Of a stretch of DNA of 32,061 nt, positions 10,604 through 20,434 are shown piece by piece. The notes under the pieces are model-generated. The model made no database searches and had not been told where the DNA came from. It worked only from the letters and a program-made list of their open reading frames with translations. Made by a program: the position numbers and the translations under genes. Origin of the DNA: Chloroflexota bacterium (lineage in GTDB: Bacteria > Chloroflexota > Dehalococcoidia > Lucifugimonadales > UBA3495). Position 1 is the first letter of the stretch. Each line of letters starts with the position of its first letter. The stretch covers positions 1 to 32,061 of the forward strand of contig JAQBXL010000017.1 of NCBI GenBank assembly GCA_027624135.1, given 5' to 3'.

Positions 10604-11623
10604 TTACTCTACTACCATTTCATGGTGCAGCAGAACGCCTCCATCTCGGTAGGCTATCGATAACGGATCGCGTTGAAGCGCCGCCTGCACCACGGTCAGC
10701 GGAGTCGTGCTCGGCGTTCCTGGCACGGTGATCCGGCGCAATACCTTGCGGTAGCCCACCACGCCCTCAGCGGCATTTGCCTGGGATTGACCCACGCCAC
10801 CGGCTGCGGCGATGAACAGTTCGACCAGGAGACCATCAGAACCTTCGGTCACTTGGGGCAACAGCCGACTCAATGTGGACACCGTTGATGCAGCCCAGGC
10901 GCCGTGGGCCAGCGGGAAGGGACCTGGCGCCATCCCTTCTGAGCTATGGCCCCCAAGCACGAGCCAACGGCTTGGGCGGGTCAGGTTCTGGTATCTCACC
11001 GAGACCTTGGCTTCACCTTCTCGAACCATGCCACCGGATCCGTCATATTCTTTCGTATCTAGCAGGTATTGACCAGAAACCGTTCCAGCGGAGATGGAGG
11101 GAATGTCGCCCTCAAGCGGCTCGAGGGATTCGGGATACGGAGAGGCTGATGCAACATCTCCGGAACTCCATACCACCTCGTCTTCGATCTGCATGGAGCC
11201 TTTGTTTAGAGCTTGGCCCACCGGACAGAAATTGGAGGCTCGCTCAAGCCGGACCCGCTCACTTTCTGAGATACTCCCTTTCAAAGTCACCAACTCCCGG
11301 ACTCCAAATCCGATGGAATTCGGAATTTCGGTAGGTACGACTTCGAATTCGACTTTGATGTCGTCTAGAGAGATGTTTCCTCGGTAGGCCACGCCTACCA
11401 ATGTAACAATGGTTCAAGCAGCCCAAGCCGCCACCGACAGGTATTGCGGGGGAGGGCCAGGAATATCGGAGTTTGAGTTTTGCATGCCGGTCACATATGA
11501 CCATGGCCCCGCCAAGCCTGGCGCTGCCCCGACCACGGTGAGGATAGCGTCATTTCCAACAGGCCGCGCGATTATGCCCGGCTTACTTTGATAATCCGTC
11601 CCGATATTTGTTCCTTCGACCAT
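10604..11623 (-). CDS. OsmC-like selenoprotein, duplicated OsmC domain (Sec at in-frame TGA 11414-11416)
   Basis: One 339-codon frame, interrupted only by TGA as codon 70, reads through from ATG 11623 (GAGGT ribosome site) to TAA at 10604. Around the TGA the protein reads QYLSVAAWAA-U-TIVTLVG, followed by ISLDDIKVEFEV. This is the OsmC/Ohr pattern in which the residue at U is the peroxidatic Cys. The resolving Cys follows at residue 133 in RASNFCPVGQAL, and it is the only other Cys I see. OsmC proteins reduce organic hydroperoxides, so Sec would make a more reactive version. The C-terminal half repeats the module: GPFPLAHGAWAAS-TVSTL has Ser246 where domain 1 has Sec70. A SECIS-like hairpin lies just downstream of the TGA. 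It is divergent from a luciferase-like gene and precedes the CoA synthetase. The alternative is a nonsense-mutated pseudogene. Confidence 0.85.
11381..11401 (-). promoter_or_regulatory. Candidate bacterial SECIS element (OsmC-like gene)
   Basis: In the transcript, 14 nt after UGA, GGUAGGC pairs perfectly with GCCUACC around a GUG loop, and a U-G and a U-A pair extend the base. The apical loop begins 21 nt after the UGA and starts with G. This matches the known bacterial SECIS layout (short stem, loop 16-37 nt from UGA, G among the first loop bases). Confidence 0.75.
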
Positions 11624-11653
11624 TAGCTACCTCAACGTTTGTCAATTGCGGTA

Positions 11654-11682
11654 TTGTAACCGTAATTATTCAATCATAAGAT
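11654..11682 (+). promoter_or_regulatory. Sigma70-type promoter of the luciferase-like gene
   Basis: TTGTAA (11654-11659), a 17-bp spacer, TAAGAT (11677-11682), about 54 bp before the ATG at 11736. On the opposite strand TACAAT overlaps the same stretch and could serve the divergent OsmC-like gene, but its -35 is poor. Confidence 0.55.
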
Positions 11683-11735
11683 GATTCTCGCGGAATCGGT
11701 TGGGCTGGGACTTTTGGAGCAGATAGGGGACGGAA

Positions 11736-12653
11736 ATGAAGATCGGCGTGAACTTGGTCAACTTCGGGCCAGACGCAAATCCTAAGGCGTTGATGCGTTG
11801 GGCTCAGTTATCGGAATCCTTGGGCTATCACCTGTTGATGACGTCCGACCACATCGCCATGACTCCAGAAGTCAACGCACGTTATCCCGCTCCATTCTAT
11901 GAGCCTATCTCCTTGCTTGGCTGGCTGGCCGGTGTCACGAGCACCATCGAGATCGGCACGACCGTGATCATCGTTCCTTATCGCAGCCCGCTTGAAGTCG
12001 CCAGAGCCTGTGCCAATATCGATCAGCTCAGTGGGGGCCGATTCATCCTAGGTGTTGGCATTGGATGGGCCCAGGAGGAATTCAAGTCATTGCGTGTCCC
12101 CTTCAAGTCCAGAGGCGCCATTACCAACGAATATCTGGAGGCGATCAAGCTCCTTTGGACCCAGGATGTGGCGTCCTATGAGGGCAAGTTCATATCGTTC
12201 AAGGATGTGCATACCGCGCCGCGGCCGGTCCGGTCCCCGCATCCTCCTATCTGGGTGGGCGGTCCCAGCGATGCAGCATTGCGGCGCACCGTCCGGTACG
12301 GAGACGCTTGGCATCCCGTGCGGGTGCGCATGGATTGGTTCAAGGACACTGGGATTCCTCGCCTCCAGCAGATCGCTGAGGAAGAGGGTAAGCCCATGCC
12401 CCCGTTGTGTCCAAGGATCAGGCTCAGACTAACAGACTCACCGATCCCTGACGCAGATCGTTTTCTGGGAGAAGGCACCCTAGACCAGGTGCACCGCGAC
12501 CTGTCTGAGCTAGAAGCAATGGGATGCTCCTACGTAGTTTTGGATACGTACTGCGATGATCTAGAGCTAGTAAGGAACGGCGAAACATCTTGGCGGTTGT
12601 TGCGCACAATGGCTGAGAAAGTGCTGGATCTGGAGAACCAGACAGTGCGCTGA
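11736..12653 (+). CDS. LLM-class F420-/FMN-dependent oxidoreductase
   Basis: A 305-residue luciferase-like monooxygenase-family TIM barrel. MKIGVNLVNFGP opens the first strand; the cofactor pocket motifs TSDHIAMTP near residue 41, GTTVIIVPYRSPLEVAR near 73 and LSGGRFILGVGIGW near 95 are typical of F420-dependent members. IWVGGPSDAALRR near 170 and GDAWHP near 187 complete the pattern. These proteins use F420H2 or FMNH2 to oxidise or oxygenate diverse organic molecules, and expanded families of them are reported in SAR202-type Chloroflexota. It has its own promoter, is divergent from the OsmC-like selenoprotein, and ends in TGA, showing UGA is a stop in this genome. Cofactor choice is an inference. 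Confidence 0.88.
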   Translation: MKIGVNLVNFGPDANPKALMRWAQLSESLGYHLLMTSDHIAMTPEVNARYPAPFYEPISLLGWLAGVTSTIEIGTTVIIVPYRSPLEVARACANIDQLSGGRFILGVGIGWAQEEFKSLRVPFKSRGAITNEYLEAIKLLWTQDVASYEGKFISFKDVHTAPRPVRSPHPPIWVGGPSDAALRRTVRYGDAWHPVRVRMDWFKDTGIPRLQQIAEEEGKPMPPLCPRIRLRLTDSPIPDADRFLGEGTLDQVHRDLSELEAMGCSYVVLDTYCDDLELVRNGETSWRLLRTMAEKVLDLENQTVR

Positions 12654-12741
12654 CCGCCAACACCGACTGTGATTAAATGACGGCGTTAGATTTTCTAGTT
12701 AGCCGTTATCCCCAGAAGACCAAAAATAAGGAGTCGCCACT

Positions 12742-13452
12742 ATGGAACCAGTCATAAGAAACTTCAGGACCTTTGCGCCGGGCCAGGCCGCCCGGGTCAT
12801 ATCTCTGGACGACAACCCGCCCACCTGCACCATGAGCTATTCGGTCATCGAGCCTGGCAAGACCAGCTCCCACCACATACACCCGTGGGAACATGAGGTC
12901 TATGTCATGGAGGGCTCGGGCACCCTAATCTGCGACGGGAAGGAATACCCGGTGAAAGCCGGCGACGCGATGTACATACCCGGCAATGTGGACCACTACA
13001 CCCTGAATGATGGCGGCCAAGGCAACATCCGCCGCATCGAGATCAATCCCCTCATCGCCGCCCAGAGTGGTGGCGCAGGCAACGACGGCGGGCAGGGCAC
13101 GGGAGAACCGCCGGTCATCCGCAACTTCAAAGACCTGAATTCCGAATCTGGGAGCCGGATCCTTGGAATCAGCGACGGTGTGCCGACCTACTTGATGCTA
13201 TACAACGGCGCGATGGCCCCGGGGGCAGTGAGTCATCCGGATACCGGCGGGCATATCCACGAGTGGGAACACGTGGTCTACGTGCTGGAAGGCACCGGCA
13301 TCCTCGGCTGCGGCGGAAAAGACTACACGGTCTCCGAGGGTGACGCCATCCTGGTGCCACAAAACACCCAGCACCAGTGGCGCAACGAGTCCGACGCGCC
13401 GGTGCTACGTGTGACCTTCAATCCTGTGGCGTCCGACGCCGCCGAGCACTAG
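12742..13452 (+). CDS. Tandem cupin (bicupin) domain protein
   Basis: A 236-residue protein of two cupin-2 barrels joined by a Gly-rich linker (AAQSGGAGNDGGQGTGEPP, about residues 106-124). Each half opens with a similar segment (PVIRNFRTF and PVIRNFKDL), showing internal duplication. Metal-ligand sets are present twice: SHHIHPWEHEVYVMEGSG with GNVDHY in the first, and GGHIHEWEHVVYVLEGTG with NTQHQW in the second. A metal-dependent dioxygenase, isomerase or small-molecule sensor role is possible; the family does not say which. AAGGAG lies before the ATG. The upstream luciferase-like gene on the same strand is 88 bp away, so co-transcription is plausible. Confidence 0.85.
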   Translation: MEPVIRNFRTFAPGQAARVISLDDNPPTCTMSYSVIEPGKTSSHHIHPWEHEVYVMEGSGTLICDGKEYPVKAGDAMYIPGNVDHYTLNDGGQGNIRRIEINPLIAAQSGGAGNDGGQGTGEPPVIRNFKDLNSESGSRILGISDGVPTYLMLYNGAMAPGAVSHPDTGGHIHEWEHVVYVLEGTGILGCGGKDYTVSEGDAILVPQNTQHQWRNESDAPVLRVTFNPVASDAAEH

Positions 13453-13457
13453 GAGTC

Positions 13458-13649
13458 TTATCCCCACGGCTTCTCAGCCGCCGAGTTTCGGCCAGAGATC
13501 CGTCCAAAAGCCAGGCACTCCCCGATGTTGCCAGTTCCCTGGTAAAGATGGCTGTTGATGGACCTAAGCGCCCCCGCGCTGTAGAGGCGGGGCAGGGGGC
13601 TGCCATCGGGGCGGACGATCTGGCCTTTGCTGTTGCGCCTGGGACCACC
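13458..13649 (-). pseudogene. 3' remnant of an FAD-dependent (fumarate-reductase-like) flavoprotein
   Basis: On the minus strand a 63-codon stretch ending in TAA (13458-13460) reads GGPRRNSKGQIVRPDGSPLP, then RLYSAGALRSINSHLYQGTG, then NIGECLAFGRISGRNSAAEK-PWG. This is the C-terminal FAD-binding tail of fumarate-reductase/3-ketosteroid-dehydrogenase-like flavoproteins (GGPxRN, PRLYSAGELG, GGGNIxECLAFGRIAG). The remaining 400 or so residues are absent, no start codon lies in frame, and the frame upstream reads into the stop of the small cupin gene. It is a relic of a deletion between the two flanking cupin genes. Confidence 0.75.
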
Positions 13650-13730
13650 GTTTCCCTTATCTTCGAAATTCCCAAGGGAGTTAGTATCTCCGTTTCGACG
13701 CCGGGTTGATGCATAAGCACTTGAGCCGGG

Positions 13731-14063
13731 TTAGTCCTTCAATATAACGTACACAGCAGATGACGGGGTGAGGTCGAGGTGGGCGTGGCCTCGGCCCGTC
13801 ACGTCTTCCATCAGTCGAATGTCGCCGCCTCGAAGCACCTGCTTTGAGCCGTCACTGGTCGTGATTTCGACCTCCCCGGAAAGATGGATTATCAGGCGCC
13901 GTTCTGGCAGCGGGTGGAAGTCCATATTTCTAGTGCCGTCAAAATGTTGGACCCTCACTTCTGAGACATTGGTCAACGCGCCCAATTCGGGGCGGTCCTC
14001 CAGTCGCAGTTCCTCGATATGACTCTCACCGTCGCTCCCCGCGAAAACTCGGTACATCGCCAT
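13731..14063 (-). CDS. Small single-domain cupin protein
   Basis: A 110-residue cupin-like beta-barrel protein with FHPLPERRLIIHLSGEVEI near residue 48, GSKQVLRGGDIRLMEDVTG near 72 and GHAHLDLTPSSAVYVIL at the end, following the usual cupin order. Only some of the standard His/Glu metal ligands are evident (His50, and His residues in GRGHAHLD), so metal binding is uncertain. AGAGGTG precedes the ATG. It is the last gene of the minus-strand operon, 47 bp after the UGSC-type selenoprotein, and is followed by a flavoprotein relic. It may bind or sense the pathway's product. Confidence 0.75.
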   Translation of the reverse strand: MAMYRVFAGSDGESHIEELRLEDRPELGALTNVSEVRVQHFDGTRNMDFHPLPERRLIIHLSGEVEITTSDGSKQVLRGGDIRLMEDVTGRGHAHLDLTPSSAVYVILKD

Positions 14064-14110
14064 GAATCACCTCTTTAGATGGCTAGCTTCTAATATCTTG
14101 TTATCGACGA

Positions 14111-15835
14111 CTAAACTTCTTCCACGGGCGACGTGGCTATGCCGTAGGTCCCATAGAAAAAGTTGGCGTAGTGGGTTGATCCTCCGGTGACGAAGAGCAG
14201 GTATTGCTCCGGGCTCTCCAGCGCCGGAATGGTCGCCTCGGGATCATCCTCCAGATGTTGCAACTCCGGGTGGTGCAGCCACTTGCCGTTGGCGTCCATG
14301 GGCATCGGCCCTTTGGCCAAGACCGACTTCAAAGAGATACGGCAGTTTTCGTGCAACCAGGACTGGGCGTCCTGCTTGCTCATGCCAGCCTCAGCCATTA
14401 TCACTGCCCGGGAAGGACTTAGGATGATGGGGTGATATGGCCCTTGATACGGCACTCGCTTGTTGGTGTGGCCAACTTGAGCGGACTGCCAACCCCTGAT
14501 CCAATCGCCCGCTCCGGCGTTCGGATAGAACATCATCGACGCGATGTTATTCAAGGTGTCCTCGTGGGTCTTGGATCTGGGATCGATGATTGTCGTCGGA
14601 CCGGTCACGGTTACCACCGTGACCGCGCTTTGCTCACGCTTGAACCCCTTGTCCATATGGTAGGGCTGCCAGGGACTGACCTCTTCGTTCTCGGCGATGC
14701 ACATCCCAAATTTAGTCGGCAGACCGATGAAATTGGGGTCTCCGGAGCCGGCGTTGCAGTAGCCGATATTGATCAGGCACAGGCGCAGCGCCCGACCGAT
14801 GGCGGTGTTCGCGCTATTGATGACGCCCGGTCCCATTGCGGTAGTCCCGAAGTTGATCCCGGCCTTCTTGGCGATGGGGCCATTGACCAGGATAATGGGC
14901 GCTTCTGTGTGGCCGGAGACTTGCATATCGCGGTGGTTCATCTCCGGTTGGGCCAGGCAGTCTATCGCGGCAAGGAGAACCGGGAATTGCTCCGGACGGC
15001 AACCGGCCATGACGGCGTTGATAGCAATCTTTTCGACTGTCGCCAGCCCGAAGCCGGGCTCCATCACCATCAGCACGTCTCCGGGGGCTCTCCTGGTTCC
15101 CTTCAGCATTTCCTCGACGGCTGCCGGCGTGGGAGGCATGACTGGGATGCCGTCGCTCCAATCCCGTTCCGCCAGGAAGCGGTTCACCGCGTCCAGCCCG
15201 GAGGGCGTCTCATCCATCTCTATCGTGAACGTCTCCGTGGTCTGACCCCCGGTCCTTGCCCTGCGAGTGCCCCCAGCGGGAACTTCCAACGTAGTGAGGC
15301 CCCGAATGATGTCATCGATCTGCTCATCCACCATTTTGTGGATGAAATCGGCCTGCTGCCCGGTGGTCGCGTGGGGGATGGTGACGAACGCGGTGTTGGG
15401 CTGGCCCCATCCGTCCACACAGGATTGCCAAGCTCTGGTGAAACTTCTGGCGGCGATGGCTACCGCCGGCACCCCCGCTTTCTCGATTGCGACCATGTCA
15501 TGGGCAAGCCATGACGTGCAACCCCCTCAATGGGCGGTCGCTCCGATCATAGCGTCTACCTCAGTGGCTATCTTGGCCGCCTCTTCTTCATCGATATGAT
15601 TCCCTCGGCTCAGAGCGACGCGGCCGGGCCTGAGGTCTCCTCCGTAGCGCTCGAATCTTACGCTTGGGAACCGCTGACTGATGTGATGGGCCACCCGCTC
15701 GACGGCGATATCGGCGCCGCCCGTCATATTGTTGTACAGGCCAATGGTCTTACCATCAAGGCTGGCCAGGCGAGGCGCGGGAGGCACCTTGAAATCAACC
15801 CTTTCTGCGGCAGGGGACATGATCTGCAACTTCAT
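14111..15835 (-). CDS. UGSC-family selenoprotein with long C-terminal domain (Sec at in-frame TGA 15527-15529)
   Basis: One 574-residue frame interrupted only by TGA as codon 103. Around it the protein reads DAMIGATAH-U-GGCTSWLAHD, followed by MVAIEKAGVPAVAI. This is the UGSC-type pattern (Sec/Cys-Gly-Ser-Cys, then a DA..LE..G(I/V)P.V.I segment). Here the motif is U-G-G-C, a redox pair resembling CxxC. Residues 1-100 include KTIGLYNNMTGGADI, typical of the family's N-terminal alpha/beta unit. The C-terminal 380 residues form a second domain marked by DGIPVMPPT, TVEKIAINAVMAGCRPEQFP and PIILVNGP. GAGGAG precedes the ATG at 15835. A SECIS-like hairpin follows the TGA. It lies 18 bp after the threonine-synthase-like gene in the operon. 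The reaction is unknown; a thiol/selenol redox or reductive-elimination step is plausible. Confidence 0.85.
15497..15515 (-). promoter_or_regulatory. Candidate bacterial SECIS element (UGSC-type gene)
   Basis: 11 nt after UGA, GUCAUGG pairs perfectly with CCAUGAC around CUUGC, so the apical loop begins 18 nt after the UGA. An outer UUGC/GCAA pairing can enclose it. If the top G-C pair opens, the loop starts with G, as in known bacterial SECIS elements; as drawn it starts with C, the weakest point of the match. Confidence 0.6.
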
Positions 15836-15853
15836 GTAATTTCTCCTCTTGTA

Positions 15854-16981
15854 TCAGGCGTCTTGTCGGGGAGGCTCATCTTTGAGACCAAACCCGGTGA
15901 CTGGAACTAGGACAGTATCGCCGACTTTAATGACGCCTTCATCGACTAACGCATCGAGTCCAGCGAATGCGGCTGCTGATGTTGGTTCGGCGAAGATACC
16001 TTCCCGCTCGGCCAAGTCTTTCTGCGCTCGCAAGATGTTAGCATCCTCGACGGCTACGGCGGACCCGGATGTTTGCCTCAAGATGTCGAGGATCTGCCAA
16101 CTACGGGACGGTGCCGCGATGGAGATTCCACCGGCGACCGTTTTCGTGGCTGATTCAGGGCTCCAGTCTTCGCCGGAAAATGCGGCGACCAATGGCATGA
16201 CGTTTCTGGATTGGACACAGTGGAGCCGGGGTATTTTCTCGATCTCGCCTGCTTCCCGCAGTTCCTTGAACCCGTTGAACGCGCCGATGAAGAGTGAGCC
16301 ATTGCCTACCGGGAACACGATATGGTCCGGCAGAACGTGTTCAAACTGCTGCACAACCTCGTAGGCGAAGGCCTTGGTGCCCTCTGCGAAGTATGGGCTC
16401 ATCATATGCGACGCGTAGACGAGGCCGTGCTGTTGGCAGTAGGTTATGGCCGCTGCCGTGACGTCCCCGCGCGAACCCTCGATGGGGTGCACCTCGGTCC
16501 CATAAGCTCTGATCTGACGGAGTTTAGCCTCGGGCGCATCAGCAGGCACGAATATGTGGGACTTGATACCGGCGCGGGCTGCATAGGCTGAAACGGAGGC
16601 TCCAGCATTGCCAGACGAGTCTTCAACCAACTCGGCCACCCCATGCTCCCTGGCGACTGACAGCATCGTTGCGGCGCCCCGGTCTTTGAACGACCCCGTG
16701 GGGTTTAGGAATTCTAACTTGGCATATAGCTGGTGAAGAGACAGGCCGCCGCCCAGCGTCGTGAGGCTTACGCAGGGAGTGTTACCCTCTCCCAGCGACA
16801 CCCAGGAACCGGGATCGTGGATCGGCGAGGGAATGTGATTGCCGTCTGCCTCATGATCTGTTTCGTGGTGAGCGAAGTACGAGACGTCTAGAGGAGACCC
16901 ACAGTCGGAACATGGCTCCACCGACATATCCGGGGGACGGGACCTGCCGCATCTTGGGCAACGCAATTCGAAGTGTGACAT
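15854..16981 (-). CDS. Threonine-synthase-like PLP-dependent lyase
   Basis: A 375-residue fold-type II PLP enzyme. An N-terminal zinc-ribbon-like segment has Cys8-Pro-Arg-Cys11 and Cys24-Ser-Asp-Cys27, as in many bacterial and archaeal threonine synthases. PTGSFKDRG contains the PLP lysine Lys99, EDSSGNAG near 121 binds the cofactor phosphate side, and VGNGSLFIG near 225 is the glycine-rich loop. Threonine synthase converts O-phosphohomoserine to threonine. In this operon, with no other threonine genes and beside a rhodanese and a UGSC selenoprotein, a beta/gamma-elimination or replacement on a sulfur or selenium amino acid is an equally reasonable idea. The ATG sits 31 bp after the rhodanese stop. 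Confidence 0.8.
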   Translation of the reverse strand: MSHFELRCPRCGRSRPPDMSVEPCSDCGSPLDVSYFAHHETDHEADGNHIPSPIHDPGSWVSLGEGNTPCVSLTTLGGGLSLHQLYAKLEFLNPTGSFKDRGAATMLSVAREHGVAELVEDSSGNAGASVSAYAARAGIKSHIFVPADAPEAKLRQIRAYGTEVHPIEGSRGDVTAAAITYCQQHGLVYASHMMSPYFAEGTKAFAYEVVQQFEHVLPDHIVFPVGNGSLFIGAFNGFKELREAGEIEKIPRLHCVQSRNVMPLVAAFSGEDWSPESATKTVAGGISIAAPSRSWQILDILRQTSGSAVAVEDANILRAQKDLAEREGIFAEPTSAAAFAGLDALVDEGVIKVGDTVLVPVTGFGLKDEPPRQDA

Positions 16982-17012
16982 TCGGCCGCTTCTAGATTGA
17001 CCCTGGTCCGGC

Positions 17013-17405
17013 CTATTCGGCGGTCGGCAGACCAGCTTCTTTCCAGCCGCGCATGCCTCCGTCCATATAGGTTACGTTCGTGAATCCCATCTCTTTTAAC
17101 ACTTGGGCCCCAAGTGACGCCATCTGGCCGCCACCTCAAGTCACTATGACCTGTCTTGACCGGTCCTCTAATCGAGGGTCTCTCAAGCGTTCGGCAATCT
17201 CCAGATCGGCGCGCATCGGAAGCGAGCCCAGAGATATCATCGTCACATTCGGGGCTCGGTCTTGCTCCGGGACAGATTCGGCATCCCGAACTTCGATCAG
17301 CATCGCCTCTTGGTCTTCTTGAAGTCTCTGGTAGGCCTGCTCCGGAGAAATGCCCGTCACCTGGGATTTCGCCTCATTCACCATGTCAGTCCAGCTTTTT
17401 GCCAC
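17013..17405 (-). CDS. Rhodanese-domain selenoprotein (Sec at in-frame TGA 17136-17138)
   Basis: A single rhodanese domain of about 130 residues, interrupted only by a TGA at the catalytic Cys. Before it come AMLIEVRDAESVPE and RSRQVIVT; after it GGGQMASLGAQVLKEMGF, TNVTYMDGGMRGWKEAGLP and a TAG. The rhodanese pattern is VVYC-x-G-x-(R/M)-S-x-x-A...L...GF..V..L.GG...W, and the TGA replaces exactly that C. Rhodaneses move sulfane sulfur through a cysteine persulfide; a Sec version would form a selenenyl-sulfide or act as a redox protein. GTG 17405 is chosen because GGGAG is 7 bases upstream; a TTG two codons earlier is too close to it. The gene follows the FAD/Fe-S oxidase by about 90 bp and precedes the PLP enzyme. 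Confidence 0.87.
17100..17116 (-). promoter_or_regulatory. Candidate bacterial SECIS element (rhodanese gene)
   Basis: 19 nt after UGA, CACUUGG pairs perfectly with CCAAGUG around GGC. The apical loop begins 26 nt after the UGA and starts with G, inside the range known for bacterial SECIS elements. The hairpin lies within the coding region, as bacterial SECIS elements do. Confidence 0.75.
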
Positions 17406-17460
17406 AATCAATCTCCCGGTGCAAACTTGCTATGAATCCCATTCCGAAAGAGCTACCGCT

Positions 17461-17494: not shown

Positions 17495-20434
17495 CTACCC
17501 TAGCGCGTCGGCCAGAACCTCGACCAAATGCCGCGCCTTCCGCCCGGTGCCGTGTTCCACCTGCTGGCGGCAGGAGACCCCCATCACCGCCACTTCCCAA
17601 TCACTGTGCTTGGCCCGGATTGCGGGGAACAAGGCCTCTTCGCCAATCTTCATCGACAGGTCATAATGCTCTTTCTCGTAGCCGAATGACCCGGCCATGC
17701 CGCAGCAACCAGCGTTGATCAACTCAACCTGGTAGCCGGGGGCCAATCGCAGCGCCGCCATGGAGGTGGCCGTGCCCATGTCGGCCTTCTGGTGGCAGTG
17801 GGCTTGGAACAGGACCTTCTTCTCCAGTTTGCTCAGGTCCAACTCCAGCTTCCCTTCTTCTTGGAGCTTCATCAAGAACTCGTCGATCATGTAAGAGTTC
17901 TCCGCAACCTTCCTCGCCCTCTCGTCTCTAACAAGTTCCGGGTATTCGTCCCGGAACGTCAGCAGGCAGCTTGGCTCGCATCCGATGACCGGTATGCCCT
18001 GTTCGGCATAGGCGTATAGCTGGTCGATGTTGGACGCCGCGTTGGCCTTGGCGTCGTCCAACAGCCCTTTGGAAATCATAGGGCGGCCACAACATTTCGT
18101 GTCCGAGAGAATCACATTGAGCCCCGCCGCCTCCAACAAAGCCACCGCCGCCTTCCCAATCTCAGGATAGTTGTAGTTCATATAGGTATCGTTCAACAGC
18201 ACCACGGTGTCCGTGGCCACCAGACTCGCCGCATCACTTCCCCCTTTCGTAAAGGGGGACCGAGGGGGATTTCCGCGCCCCCTGAACCATTTGGCAAAGG
18301 TCTGGCGGACGAACTTGGGTGTCTTCCGTTTGGGGGTTACACCCAAGACCATTTGCGCCATCATCTTGCCGATGGGGTTCTGCGCCATCAAGTTGGACAA
18401 CGGAGCTGTTCGGCTGCCCCAGGCGCTCAGCCGGTTGATGTGGGCAAAAACCTTGTTCCGGAGCGGTGTGCCGTTGGCCTGGTGGTACTGGTCTAGGAAC
18501 TCGTACTTCAACTTGGCCATGTCCACGCCTGATTCGCATTCAGACTTGCAGCCCTTGCACTCCAGACATAGGTCCATTGCTTCATAGAGCCGCTTGCTGG
18601 TCATCGTGCCTTCGGGCAGCTTGCCCGACAGCGCCGCTCTCAGCAGGTTGGCCCGGCCTCTGGTGGAATGTTCTTCGTCCCTGGTGGCGATGTACGAGGG
18701 GCACATATGTCCCTCCAGCTTCCGGCAGGCCCCCATGCCGTTGCACATCTCCACCGCTCCGGCGAAATTGGTATCGATGGAGAAATCGAGCTTGCTTGGC
18801 GGCGATGACGCCCGGTAGTCCGCGCCGTAACGCAGGTTCTGGTCCATGGGCGGGCAGTCGATGATCTTGCCGGGATTCATGATGCCGTCAGGGTCGAACG
18901 TGGCCTTGAGCTCTTGGAACAGTTTGTAGATCTCAGGGCCGAACATCTTTTCGTTCCACACGCCCCGTACGATGCCGTCGCCGTGCTCGCCGCTGAGTGA
19001 CCCGCCAAATTCCTTGACCAGATCGCTGATCTCGTCGGCGATGGCCACCATCTTGTCCACGCCGTCTTGGTTCTTCAGGCTGACCACTGGTCTGATGTGC
19101 AGGCAACCCACGCTGGCGTGCCCGTAGTAAGCGGCCTCAGTATCGTGGTTCCGGACGATCTCGTCGAACCGCCGGACAAAGTCGCCCATGTTCTCGGGGT
19201 CGACCGCCGTGTCCTCCACGAAGGGCAGCGGTTTGGCGTCGCCTTTCATGCTCATCAACAACCCCAGGCCGTTCTTTCGCACCGCCCATACGCTGGCCTG
19301 GGCTGCACGGTCCATCATGTTTACGCAGGCGTAACCATGGCTCCGGCGCGTCATGTCGTCCTTCAGTTTTTCCATCTTGTCGACAAGTTCAGCTTCCGAC
19401 TCGCCGTAGAATTCCACCACCAAGATGGCCCCAGGGTTCCCTTCGATGAACGCCATATTGGAGCCTAATCCGGTGGACGCTCTTGAACGCTCCAACACAT
19501 TGCGGTCCATGATCTCAATGGACGACGGCCCATGTTCCAGGATGTCTTTGATCGACTCGCTGGCCCCGAAGATATCTTCGAAGTGGACAACCGATATTGA
19601 CGTCATGGTTGGCCGCGGCACCAGGTTGATCTTGACCTCGGTTACTACGCAGAGAGTGCCCTCGGAGCCGACCACCATCTTGGTCATGTTGAAGGGCGAG
19701 TCCGTTAAGAATTCGTCCAGGTTGTAGCCGCTGACCCGGCGCATGATCTTGGGATAGCGGGCTTCGATCTCGGCCACGTTCTCCTGGGCCAACCGACGCA
19801 CTTCCCTGTAGATGTCGGACTCCAGTCCGCTGCCGCTGAGCTTGGCTTCCAATTCTCGGGCATCCAACGGGTTGAAATGAGTCTGGGTTCCGTCCGACAG
19901 CACCACATCAAGTTCTTTGATGTGGTCGATGGACTTGCCGTAGATCACCGAGTGGGCGCCACAGGTGTTGTTTCCGACTCCGCCGCCCACGCAGGCCCGG
20001 CTGGATGTGGTGGGGTCCGGGGCATACATCAGCCCGTATGGCAGCAGTTGCCGGTTCAGGTCGTCGAGCACGATGCCCGGCTCCACCCTGGCCCACTGCT
20101 CCTCTTTATTGACTTCAATGATCCGGTTCAGGTACTTGCTGAAATCGGTTACGATGGCATGGTTGACGGTTTGGCCCGCCAGGCTGGTGCCCCCAGCTCG
20201 GGGCAGCACCGGCACTCCGCTCGCTTTGGCGATTTCGACCACGGCCAGAACGTCTTCCACGTTGCGCGGTATCACCACGCCCACCGGCTCCATCTGGTAG
20301 ATGCTGGCGTCGGTGCTGTAAAGCACACGGGTGAAGGGGTCGAATTTGACCTCGCCAGAGACCCGGCGCTTCAGCGCGTTCTCAATGTCGCCCCTTTCTG
20401 CAGTGTGGATCCTGGCCGCTGCCGTGGTAGCCAT
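17495..20434 (-). CDS. FAD-linked oxidase / (Fe-S)-binding fusion protein (GlcD-GlcF / D-lactate dehydrogenase type)
   Basis: A 979-residue fusion. Residues about 35-260 are the FAD-binding PCMH domain (VLPRAGGTSLAGQTVN), and about 265-540 the FAD-oxidase C-terminal domain ending near SLSGEHGDGIVRG. About 570-700 carry Cys-rich iron-sulfur segments, notably CLECKGCKSECESGVD. The C-terminal quarter has two CCG modules (DTKCCGRPMISKG and NAGCCGMAGSFGYEKEHYD) as in GlcF/heterodisulfide-reductase-like subunits. Such enzymes oxidise a 2-hydroxy acid (D-lactate, glycolate, 2-hydroxyglutarate) and pass electrons to Fe-S centres, usually at the membrane face. A palindromic repeat is translated in the linker before the first CCG module. 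It heads the operon with the Sec-rhodanese. GGAG precedes the ATG. Confidence 0.92.
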   Translation of the reverse strand: MATTAAARIHTAERGDIENALKRRVSGEVKFDPFTRVLYSTDASIYQMEPVGVVIPRNVEDVLAVVEIAKASGVPVLPRAGGTSLAGQTVNHAIVTDFSKYLNRIIEVNKEEQWARVEPGIVLDDLNRQLLPYGLMYAPDPTTSSRACVGGGVGNNTCGAHSVIYGKSIDHIKELDVVLSDGTQTHFNPLDARELEAKLSGSGLESDIYREVRRLAQENVAEIEARYPKIMRRVSGYNLDEFLTDSPFNMTKMVVGSEGTLCVVTEVKINLVPRPTMTSISVVHFEDIFGASESIKDILEHGPSSIEIMDRNVLERSRASTGLGSNMAFIEGNPGAILVVEFYGESEAELVDKMEKLKDDMTRRSHGYACVNMMDRAAQASVWAVRKNGLGLLMSMKGDAKPLPFVEDTAVDPENMGDFVRRFDEIVRNHDTEAAYYGHASVGCLHIRPVVSLKNQDGVDKMVAIADEISDLVKEFGGSLSGEHGDGIVRGVWNEKMFGPEIYKLFQELKATFDPDGIMNPGKIIDCPPMDQNLRYGADYRASSPPSKLDFSIDTNFAGAVEMCNGMGACRKLEGHMCPSYIATRDEEHSTRGRANLLRAALSGKLPEGTMTSKRLYEAMDLCLECKGCKSECESGVDMAKLKYEFLDQYHQANGTPLRNKVFAHINRLSAWGSRTAPLSNLMAQNPIGKMMAQMVLGVTPKRKTPKFVRQTFAKWFRGRGNPPRSPFTKGGSDAASLVATDTVVLLNDTYMNYNYPEIGKAAVALLEAAGLNVILSDTKCCGRPMISKGLLDDAKANAASNIDQLYAYAEQGIPVIGCEPSCLLTFRDEYPELVRDERARKVAENSYMIDEFLMKLQEEGKLELDLSKLEKKVLFQAHCHQKADMGTATSMAALRLAPGYQVELINAGCCGMAGSFGYEKEHYDLSMKIGEEALFPAIRAKHSDWEVAVMGVSCRQQVEHGTGRKARHLVEVLADALG
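18236..18277. repeat. Palindromic repeat, type B, inserted in frame in the oxidase gene
   Basis: CCCCCTTT (18240-18247) and AAAGGGGG (18251-18258) form a perfect 8-bp hairpin with a CGT loop, then ACCGAGGGGGATTTCCGCG. On the minus strand it is translated as GNPPRSPFTKGG, a composition unlike the flanking protein, in the linker between the Fe-S domain and the first CCG module. The frame is kept. Confidence 0.8.

Follow-up and report, generated by a model that had tools for sequence, protein, structure and literature searches.

Three probable selenoprotein genes, two of them in one gene run, in a Chloroflexota genome

OsmC-like proteins, UGSC proteins and rhodaneses have all been catalogued as selenoprotein families (PMC1088965, PMC2398784, PMC13188914), and the passages on UGSC in the 2008 Global Ocean Sampling (GOS) paper describe a fusion of this protein with a second domain, Unknown_1 (PMC2398784). 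Several selenoprotein genes are also known to lie side by side in operons such as grdA-grdB, frhA-frhD-hdrA, SAO and Tso (PMC13188914). Here we describe a 32,061-nucleotide (nt) stretch of DNA from a Chloroflexota bacterium (GCA_027624135.1, contig JAQBXL010000017.1, positions 1 to 32,061; called the window below) in which one gene of each of these three families carries a TGA codon in frame. From comparison of sequences, these three genes very probably encode bacterial selenoproteins in which UGA is read as selenocysteine (Sec, U). The families themselves are known ones, firmly catalogued as including selenoproteins, where an original prediction made on this DNA had called them known or suspected to do so; what is added here is the gene arrangement and a link between UGSC and the GrdB/PrdB family. 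The genes and their in-frame codons are as follows.

11623..10604, minus strand: putative OsmC-like selenoprotein gene, 339 amino acids (aa), Sec as residue 70, motif WAAUTIVT
11416-11414, minus strand: UGA of the OsmC-like gene, codon 70, putatively Sec
15835..14111, minus strand: putative UGSC-family selenoprotein gene, 574 aa, Sec as residue 103, motif AHUGGCTSW; its fused C-terminal domain, which bears no family name, is the Unknown_1 of the GOS paper
15529-15527, minus strand: UGA of the UGSC gene, codon 103, putatively Sec
17405..17013, minus strand: putative single-domain rhodanese selenoprotein gene, with a GTG start at 17405 or a TTG start at 17411, motif VTUGGGQM
17138-17136, minus strand: UGA of the rhodanese gene, codon 92 counted from 17411, putatively Sec

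When TGA is read as U, each of the three open reading frames (ORFs) contains a single in-frame TGA and no other stop. Family membership is clear from the Pfam matches: PF02566 for the OsmC-like protein (31.1 bits, cut-off 27.5), PF24696 for the UGSC protein (103.5 bits, gathering cut-off 25), in which the UxxC motif appears as UGGC, and PF00581 for the rhodanese (55 bits, cut-off 22), in which the UxxG motif appears as UGGG. An Rfam scan of the window gave no match. TGA is the genuine stop of 3 of the 26 main genes of the window, including a threonine-synthase-like gene after whose TGA a new start follows. The original prediction was thus right that three families each have one TGA and no other defect, and that UGA is a real stop elsewhere in the window. 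A genome-wide reassignment of UGA, for instance to Trp or Gly, would agree with so small a number of TGA stops, but it is exceedingly improbable given those three ordinary gene ends and the restriction of TGA to sites equivalent to cysteine (Cys), the residue that homologs have in the column, and never to Trp or Gly sites.

Compared with their catalogued counterparts, the three genes show both likenesses and differences. The UGSC protein shares the UxxC motif, the family and the fused second domain with the UGSC selenoproteins and the UGSC-Unknown_1 fusion, as the UGSC passages of the GOS paper present them (PMC2398784; PF24696; NF041046), but its motif is UGGC rather than UGSC, it falls under the cut-off of the NCBIfam equivalog NF041046 (88.4 vs 125 bits), and its gene stands in a run with that of a putative Sec rhodanese. 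The OsmC-like protein would likewise have Sec in the place of the peroxidatic Cys (PMC1088965, PMC2398784; PF02566); the catalogued form is UxxT, whereas UxxV (UTIV or UTVV) is found here, along with a C-terminal extension of about 170 aa that includes a WAAS motif. As is the case for the UxxG forms 2 and 4 of rhodanese-like selenoproteins (PMC13188914; PF00581), the rhodanese has a single domain and a UxxG motif, with the putative Sec at the catalytic Cys. It does not match the CxU rhodanese type (NF041203, 21 vs 115 bits), and in this genus there are two paralog groups of the rhodanese, both with Sec.

The position of the TGA is strongly conserved in all three cases. Dozens of full-length relatives of the UGSC gene exist within the order, with exactly one TGA each, and homologs with one TGA occur in dozens of genera. 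The TGA column is identical in 29/29 full-length homologs aligned, and in those loci from named genomes that span the site it is TGA in 66/75, TGC or TGT (Cys) in 8/75 and GCG (Ala) in 1/75; isolates with the Cys form include Nonomuraea corallina, Natronomonas gomsonensis, Natrialba asiatica and Halobellus clavatus. The Ala homolog (L140:2765-3988) may be inactive or may work in a different way. TGA is present in 5/5 OsmC-like sequences, the four relatives being 55-63% identical and having one TGA each, and in 17/17 rhodaneses, made up of six orthologs counting this one and the second paralog group (the five other orthologs in the genus are 71-86% identical). On alignment with proteins of solved structure, the OsmC-like TGA coincides with the peroxidatic Cys of OsmC/Ohr proteins, with C133 on the resolving Cys, and the rhodanese TGA coincides with the catalytic Cys of rhodaneses. 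Together with the Cys-form UGSC loci, these alignments bear out the expectation that each TGA occupies its family's redox or catalytic Cys.

Selection on the sequence beyond the TGA was estimated between this genome and its relatives as the ratio of nonsynonymous to synonymous change (dN/dS). This ratio is 0.07 in UGSC and 0.02-0.14 among the rhodanese orthologs; for OsmC, comparisons in which synonymous change is unsaturated give about 0.12-0.13. Judged from these ratios, the sequence downstream of each TGA is translated in frame and under strong purifying selection (dN/dS 0.02-0.15). Decay of these genes in relatives was looked for and none was found: a single TGA is retained throughout, and the genes are under purifying selection. 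This bears directly on the notion that the TGAs are ordinary stops and the genes split, decaying or yielding only truncated products. Standard gene callers would indeed end each gene at its UGA, as 3/26 window genes do end, but the conserved downstream frame contradicts this explanation, and so do the recurrence of the same single TGA across many genera with no other defect and the constant presence of the catalytic residue at the TGA; we regard it as highly improbable. Conservation is the ground on which a genome-wide reassignment of UGA, pseudogenes and sequencing error were each rejected.

The machinery for Sec insertion, a search for which had been proposed along with the original prediction, is found in part. 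The genome assembly (2.98 Mb in 213 contigs, 87% complete) contains selB (359 bits) and selD (375 bits; G000:C87:12420-13340, L208), the latter with an in-frame TGA at its own active site (CAGUAAK), as in 12/12 genomes of the genus, so that it encodes a Sec-containing selenophosphate synthetase. Among relatives, selA scores over the cut-off in 35/40, and in 9/11 other genomes of the genus, while tRNA-Sec does so in 32/40. In G014, a near-closed genome from the same family, a TGA-containing OsmC gene occurs together with selA and tRNA-Sec, and a gammaproteobacterial metagenome-assembled genome (MAG; L128:4811-10160) has a UGSC gene with TGA placed between its selB and selA genes. The genome studied here has at least four more selenoprotein genes.

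Each UGA is followed by a hairpin resembling a bacterial Sec insertion sequence (bSECIS).

11383..11399, minus strand: OsmC hairpin, GGTAGGC-GTG-GCCTACC, loop GUG, 21 nt after the UGA
15497..15515, minus strand: UGSC hairpin, GTCATGG-CTTGC-CCATGAC, loop CUUGC, 18 nt after the UGA
17100..17116, minus strand: rhodanese hairpin, CACTTGG-GGC-CCAAGTG, loop GGC, 26 nt after the UGA

The stems are exactly as had been predicted, with seven perfect Watson-Crick pairs in each and loops 21, 18 and 26 nt past the UGA. A 7-bp Watson-Crick stem at such a distance is found for just 1.3% of the ordinary codons in the window (8,084 examined), so that three stems out of three are far from chance. The bSECIS model (PMC13188914) specifies a loop of 3-9 nt on a stem of 4-16 bp, the loop lying 16-37 nt after the UGA, a G in the first two loop positions and a minimum free energy (MFE) of -7.5 or lower; the OsmC hairpin fits all of these. 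In UGSC genes with TGA, the loop of the best stem lies at 18-19 nt in 89/95, against 21 expected under synonymous recoding, and the mean hairpin z against such recoding is 2.1 in these genes vs 0.4 in nine non-TGA homologs, the hairpin being weak in the Cys forms. Silent third bases of a Ser and a His codon in this hairpin pair in 65/66 cases (G-C 56, G-U 5, A-U 4). These statistics are uncorrected for kinship among the sequences. The OsmC hairpin is present at 21 nt in 5/5 homologs, and that of the rhodanese is kept in its orthologs, with one pair varying between A-U, G-U and G-C.

Some results weigh against the interpretation of these genes as selenoprotein genes. When compared with synonymous recoding, G-U pairs being allowed, the hairpins taken singly are not significant (p = 0.09 for OsmC, 0.05 for UGSC, 0.30 for the rhodanese), and their weight therefore rests on conservation in relatives. 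The bare rhodanese hairpin reaches -7.3 kcal/mol, just short of the -7.5 limit, although the other bSECIS criteria hold for it; the UGSC loop CUUGC has no early G unless the closing pair is opened; and in the rhodanese paralog group no hairpin is clearly recognisable. The remaining part of the machinery was not recovered: selA is not in the assembly, either by profile cut-off or when sought with the DNA of a relative, neighbourhood included, and of tRNA-Sec only two thirds were found, from the 3' end and including the UCA anticodon (G000:C127:2734-2839, L207). The contig syntenic with the tRNA-Sec locus of another genome (G001) stops about 0.6 kb before that locus, and the gap in selA and tRNA-Sec reads as assembly loss. 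As for the tRNA-Sec fragment itself, its 5' part is unrelated, and it is possibly the attachment-site copy of an integrating element or a misassembly.

It could also be asked whether an unusual tRNA with a UCA anticodon decodes UGA as Cys, or another standard residue, instead of Sec. The absence of selA from the assembly, the incomplete tRNA-Sec there and the Cys of homologs at this position would all be in line with this, but the presence of selB and of a Sec-type selD, the occurrence of selA and a canonical tRNA-Sec in relatives, and the selection of the UGSC hairpin specifically in TGA genes make it very unlikely. Coding for Sec, the reading we favour, is well supported by the machinery, the Cys homologs, the lack of decay and the gene run, as the original prediction had proposed; the coding itself rests on comparative evidence, and the chemistry of the proteins can be described only conditionally. 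SelB with Sec-tRNA(Sec) would read each UGA as Sec, directed by the hairpin that lies 18-26 nt beyond it, and the Sec selenolate would take the place of the catalytic thiol of homologs. From what is known of the families, Sec in the OsmC-like protein would replace the peroxidatic Cys in peroxide reduction, with Cys133 as the resolving thiol, and Sec in the rhodanese would replace the persulfide-carrying Cys in sulfur or selenium transfer. In the UGSC protein, Sec would stand where it stands in selenoprotein B of glycine and proline reductases; the UxxC motif would supply the nucleophile, be reduced in thioredoxin fashion and act on a substrate of the protein's own C-terminal domain.

This last proposal follows from a comparison of UGSC with selenoprotein B of glycine/sarcosine/betaine reductase (GrdB) and with the D-proline reductase protein PrdB (PF07355, TIGR01917). 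Their Sec regions align with that of UGSC, with Sec on Sec, at an hhalign probability of 92% (E 5e-7), and the NCBIfam model for glycine reductase B matches 14/40 UGSC proteins (best 7e-5). The UGSC protein is far below the family cut-off (13.1 vs 602 bits), and it differs from GrdB and PrdB in having another second domain, with no GrdE/PrdA pyruvoyl partner seen. The UGSC domain thus appears, on profile comparison, to be distantly related to the Sec domain of these reductases, a link of which we found no mention in part of the literature on UGSC selenoproteins. The whole UGSC protein is modelled with high confidence (predicted local distance difference test, pLDDT, 88; predicted template modelling score, pTM, 0.91), the alignment-free model reaching a pLDDT of only 34. 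Residues 27-186 of the model form a Rossmann/flavodoxin-like alpha/beta fold (best Z 11.1 among the matches listed), and no thioredoxin fold around the Sec is among the fold matches listed. A search of the UGSC sequence profile against the PDB gave no match. The C-terminal domain, which also occurs as a stand-alone protein, has no Pfam match and no clear fold relative among the matches listed, these mainly covering residues 24-191.

From the UxxC motif and the thioredoxin-like fold proposed in 2008 (PMC2398784), one would expect UGSC to be simply a thiol-redox protein with a thioredoxin fold and no relationship to the Grd/Prd reductases. We consider this unlikely in view of the predicted Rossmann/flavodoxin-like fold, with no thioredoxin among the matches listed, and of the profile match to GrdB that places Sec on Sec. 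A Cys-type UGSC gene in an actinobacterial MAG lies near a gene for a thioredoxin reductase-thioredoxin fusion, a neighbour that, by analogy, would fit a thioredoxin-fed reductase of Grd type. More tentatively still, and as a possibility we would not call probable, UGSC-Unknown_1 proteins could form a large branch within the Sec enzymes of the glycine/proline-reductase type that has expanded in Chloroflexota and in Proteobacteria, its members being thioredoxin-fed enzymes of reductive catabolism; one of them, in this genus, would share a pathway with a pyridoxal phosphate (PLP)-dependent enzyme and the Sec rhodanese. For UGSC, an as yet uncharacterised but major family among marine selenoproteins, GrdB/PrdB provides a concrete relative that can be put to the test, and laboratory work on the family is made possible by the Cys versions that cultured bacteria and archaea contain. 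All three genes of the window are cut short by gene callers, so that annotations conceal the actual selenium use of this uncultured Chloroflexota lineage.

Around the UGSC and rhodanese genes are three further genes of the same strand.

17495..20434, minus strand: FAD/Fe-S oxidoreductase (GlcD/YdiJ-GlpC-like), 83 nt upstream of the rhodanese gene
15854..16981, minus strand: PLP-dependent threonine-synthase-like gene (PF00291, 266 bits), between the rhodanese and UGSC genes
13731..14063, minus strand: 110-aa ORF without family match, 47 nt downstream of the UGSC gene

From the coordinates, 31 nt separate the rhodanese gene from that of the PLP enzyme, whose ordinary UGA stop lies 18 nt ahead of the UGSC gene. 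The 110-aa ORF probably shares the UGSC transcript, and the FAD/Fe-S oxidoreductase gene is possibly on the same transcript as the rhodanese. The claim of a clustered set with two members in one operon stands for the rhodanese and UGSC genes, which belong to one run of close same-strand genes, but has to be qualified for the OsmC gene, which is 2 kb distant, with two genes of the opposite strand and another small gene in between. The trio of Sec rhodanese, PLP enzyme and Sec UGSC is found in one other genome of the genus (G003), and the rhodanese and PLP genes also adjoin in G001 (in reversed order), G004 and G008, where contigs end nearby. Outside the genus, no rhodanese or PLP gene was seen next to UGSC, most of the loci examined having only 1.5 kb flanks. 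Unlike the operons cited at the outset, this arrangement involves other families, with rhodanese and UGSC around a PLP enzyme, and is known from one genus only.

Other observations concern further members of these families. In the C-terminal half of the OsmC-like protein (window 10607-11113), a WAAS motif is conserved that looks like the WAAU site; from this resemblance, that half is perhaps a degenerate second OsmC domain, making the protein a fused pseudo-dimer; the hhalign probability for such a domain is only 31%, and no family or PDB match was found for this half. A second UGSC selenoprotein gene (G000:C194:11898-13466, L212; motif ADUGSCTSW) ends after the UGSC domain, the C-terminal domain being encoded by a gene of its own that comes next. 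In a PrdB-like gene (G000:C185:5478-6194; L185, L211) the frame runs through a TGA (TPTUPACS), making it a selenoprotein candidate, and a second rhodanese gene (G000:C77:4737-5099, L061), with ten relatives in the genus, has TGA at the catalytic Cys (URLG) but lacks a clear hairpin at the distances expected. Finally, a groundwater Chloroflexi MAG (JACPQD01) carries at least 15 TGA-bearing UGSC genes at seven loci (L065, L066, L082, L085, L121, L123 and L124), some of them in tandem, which amounts to a large selenoprotein expansion.

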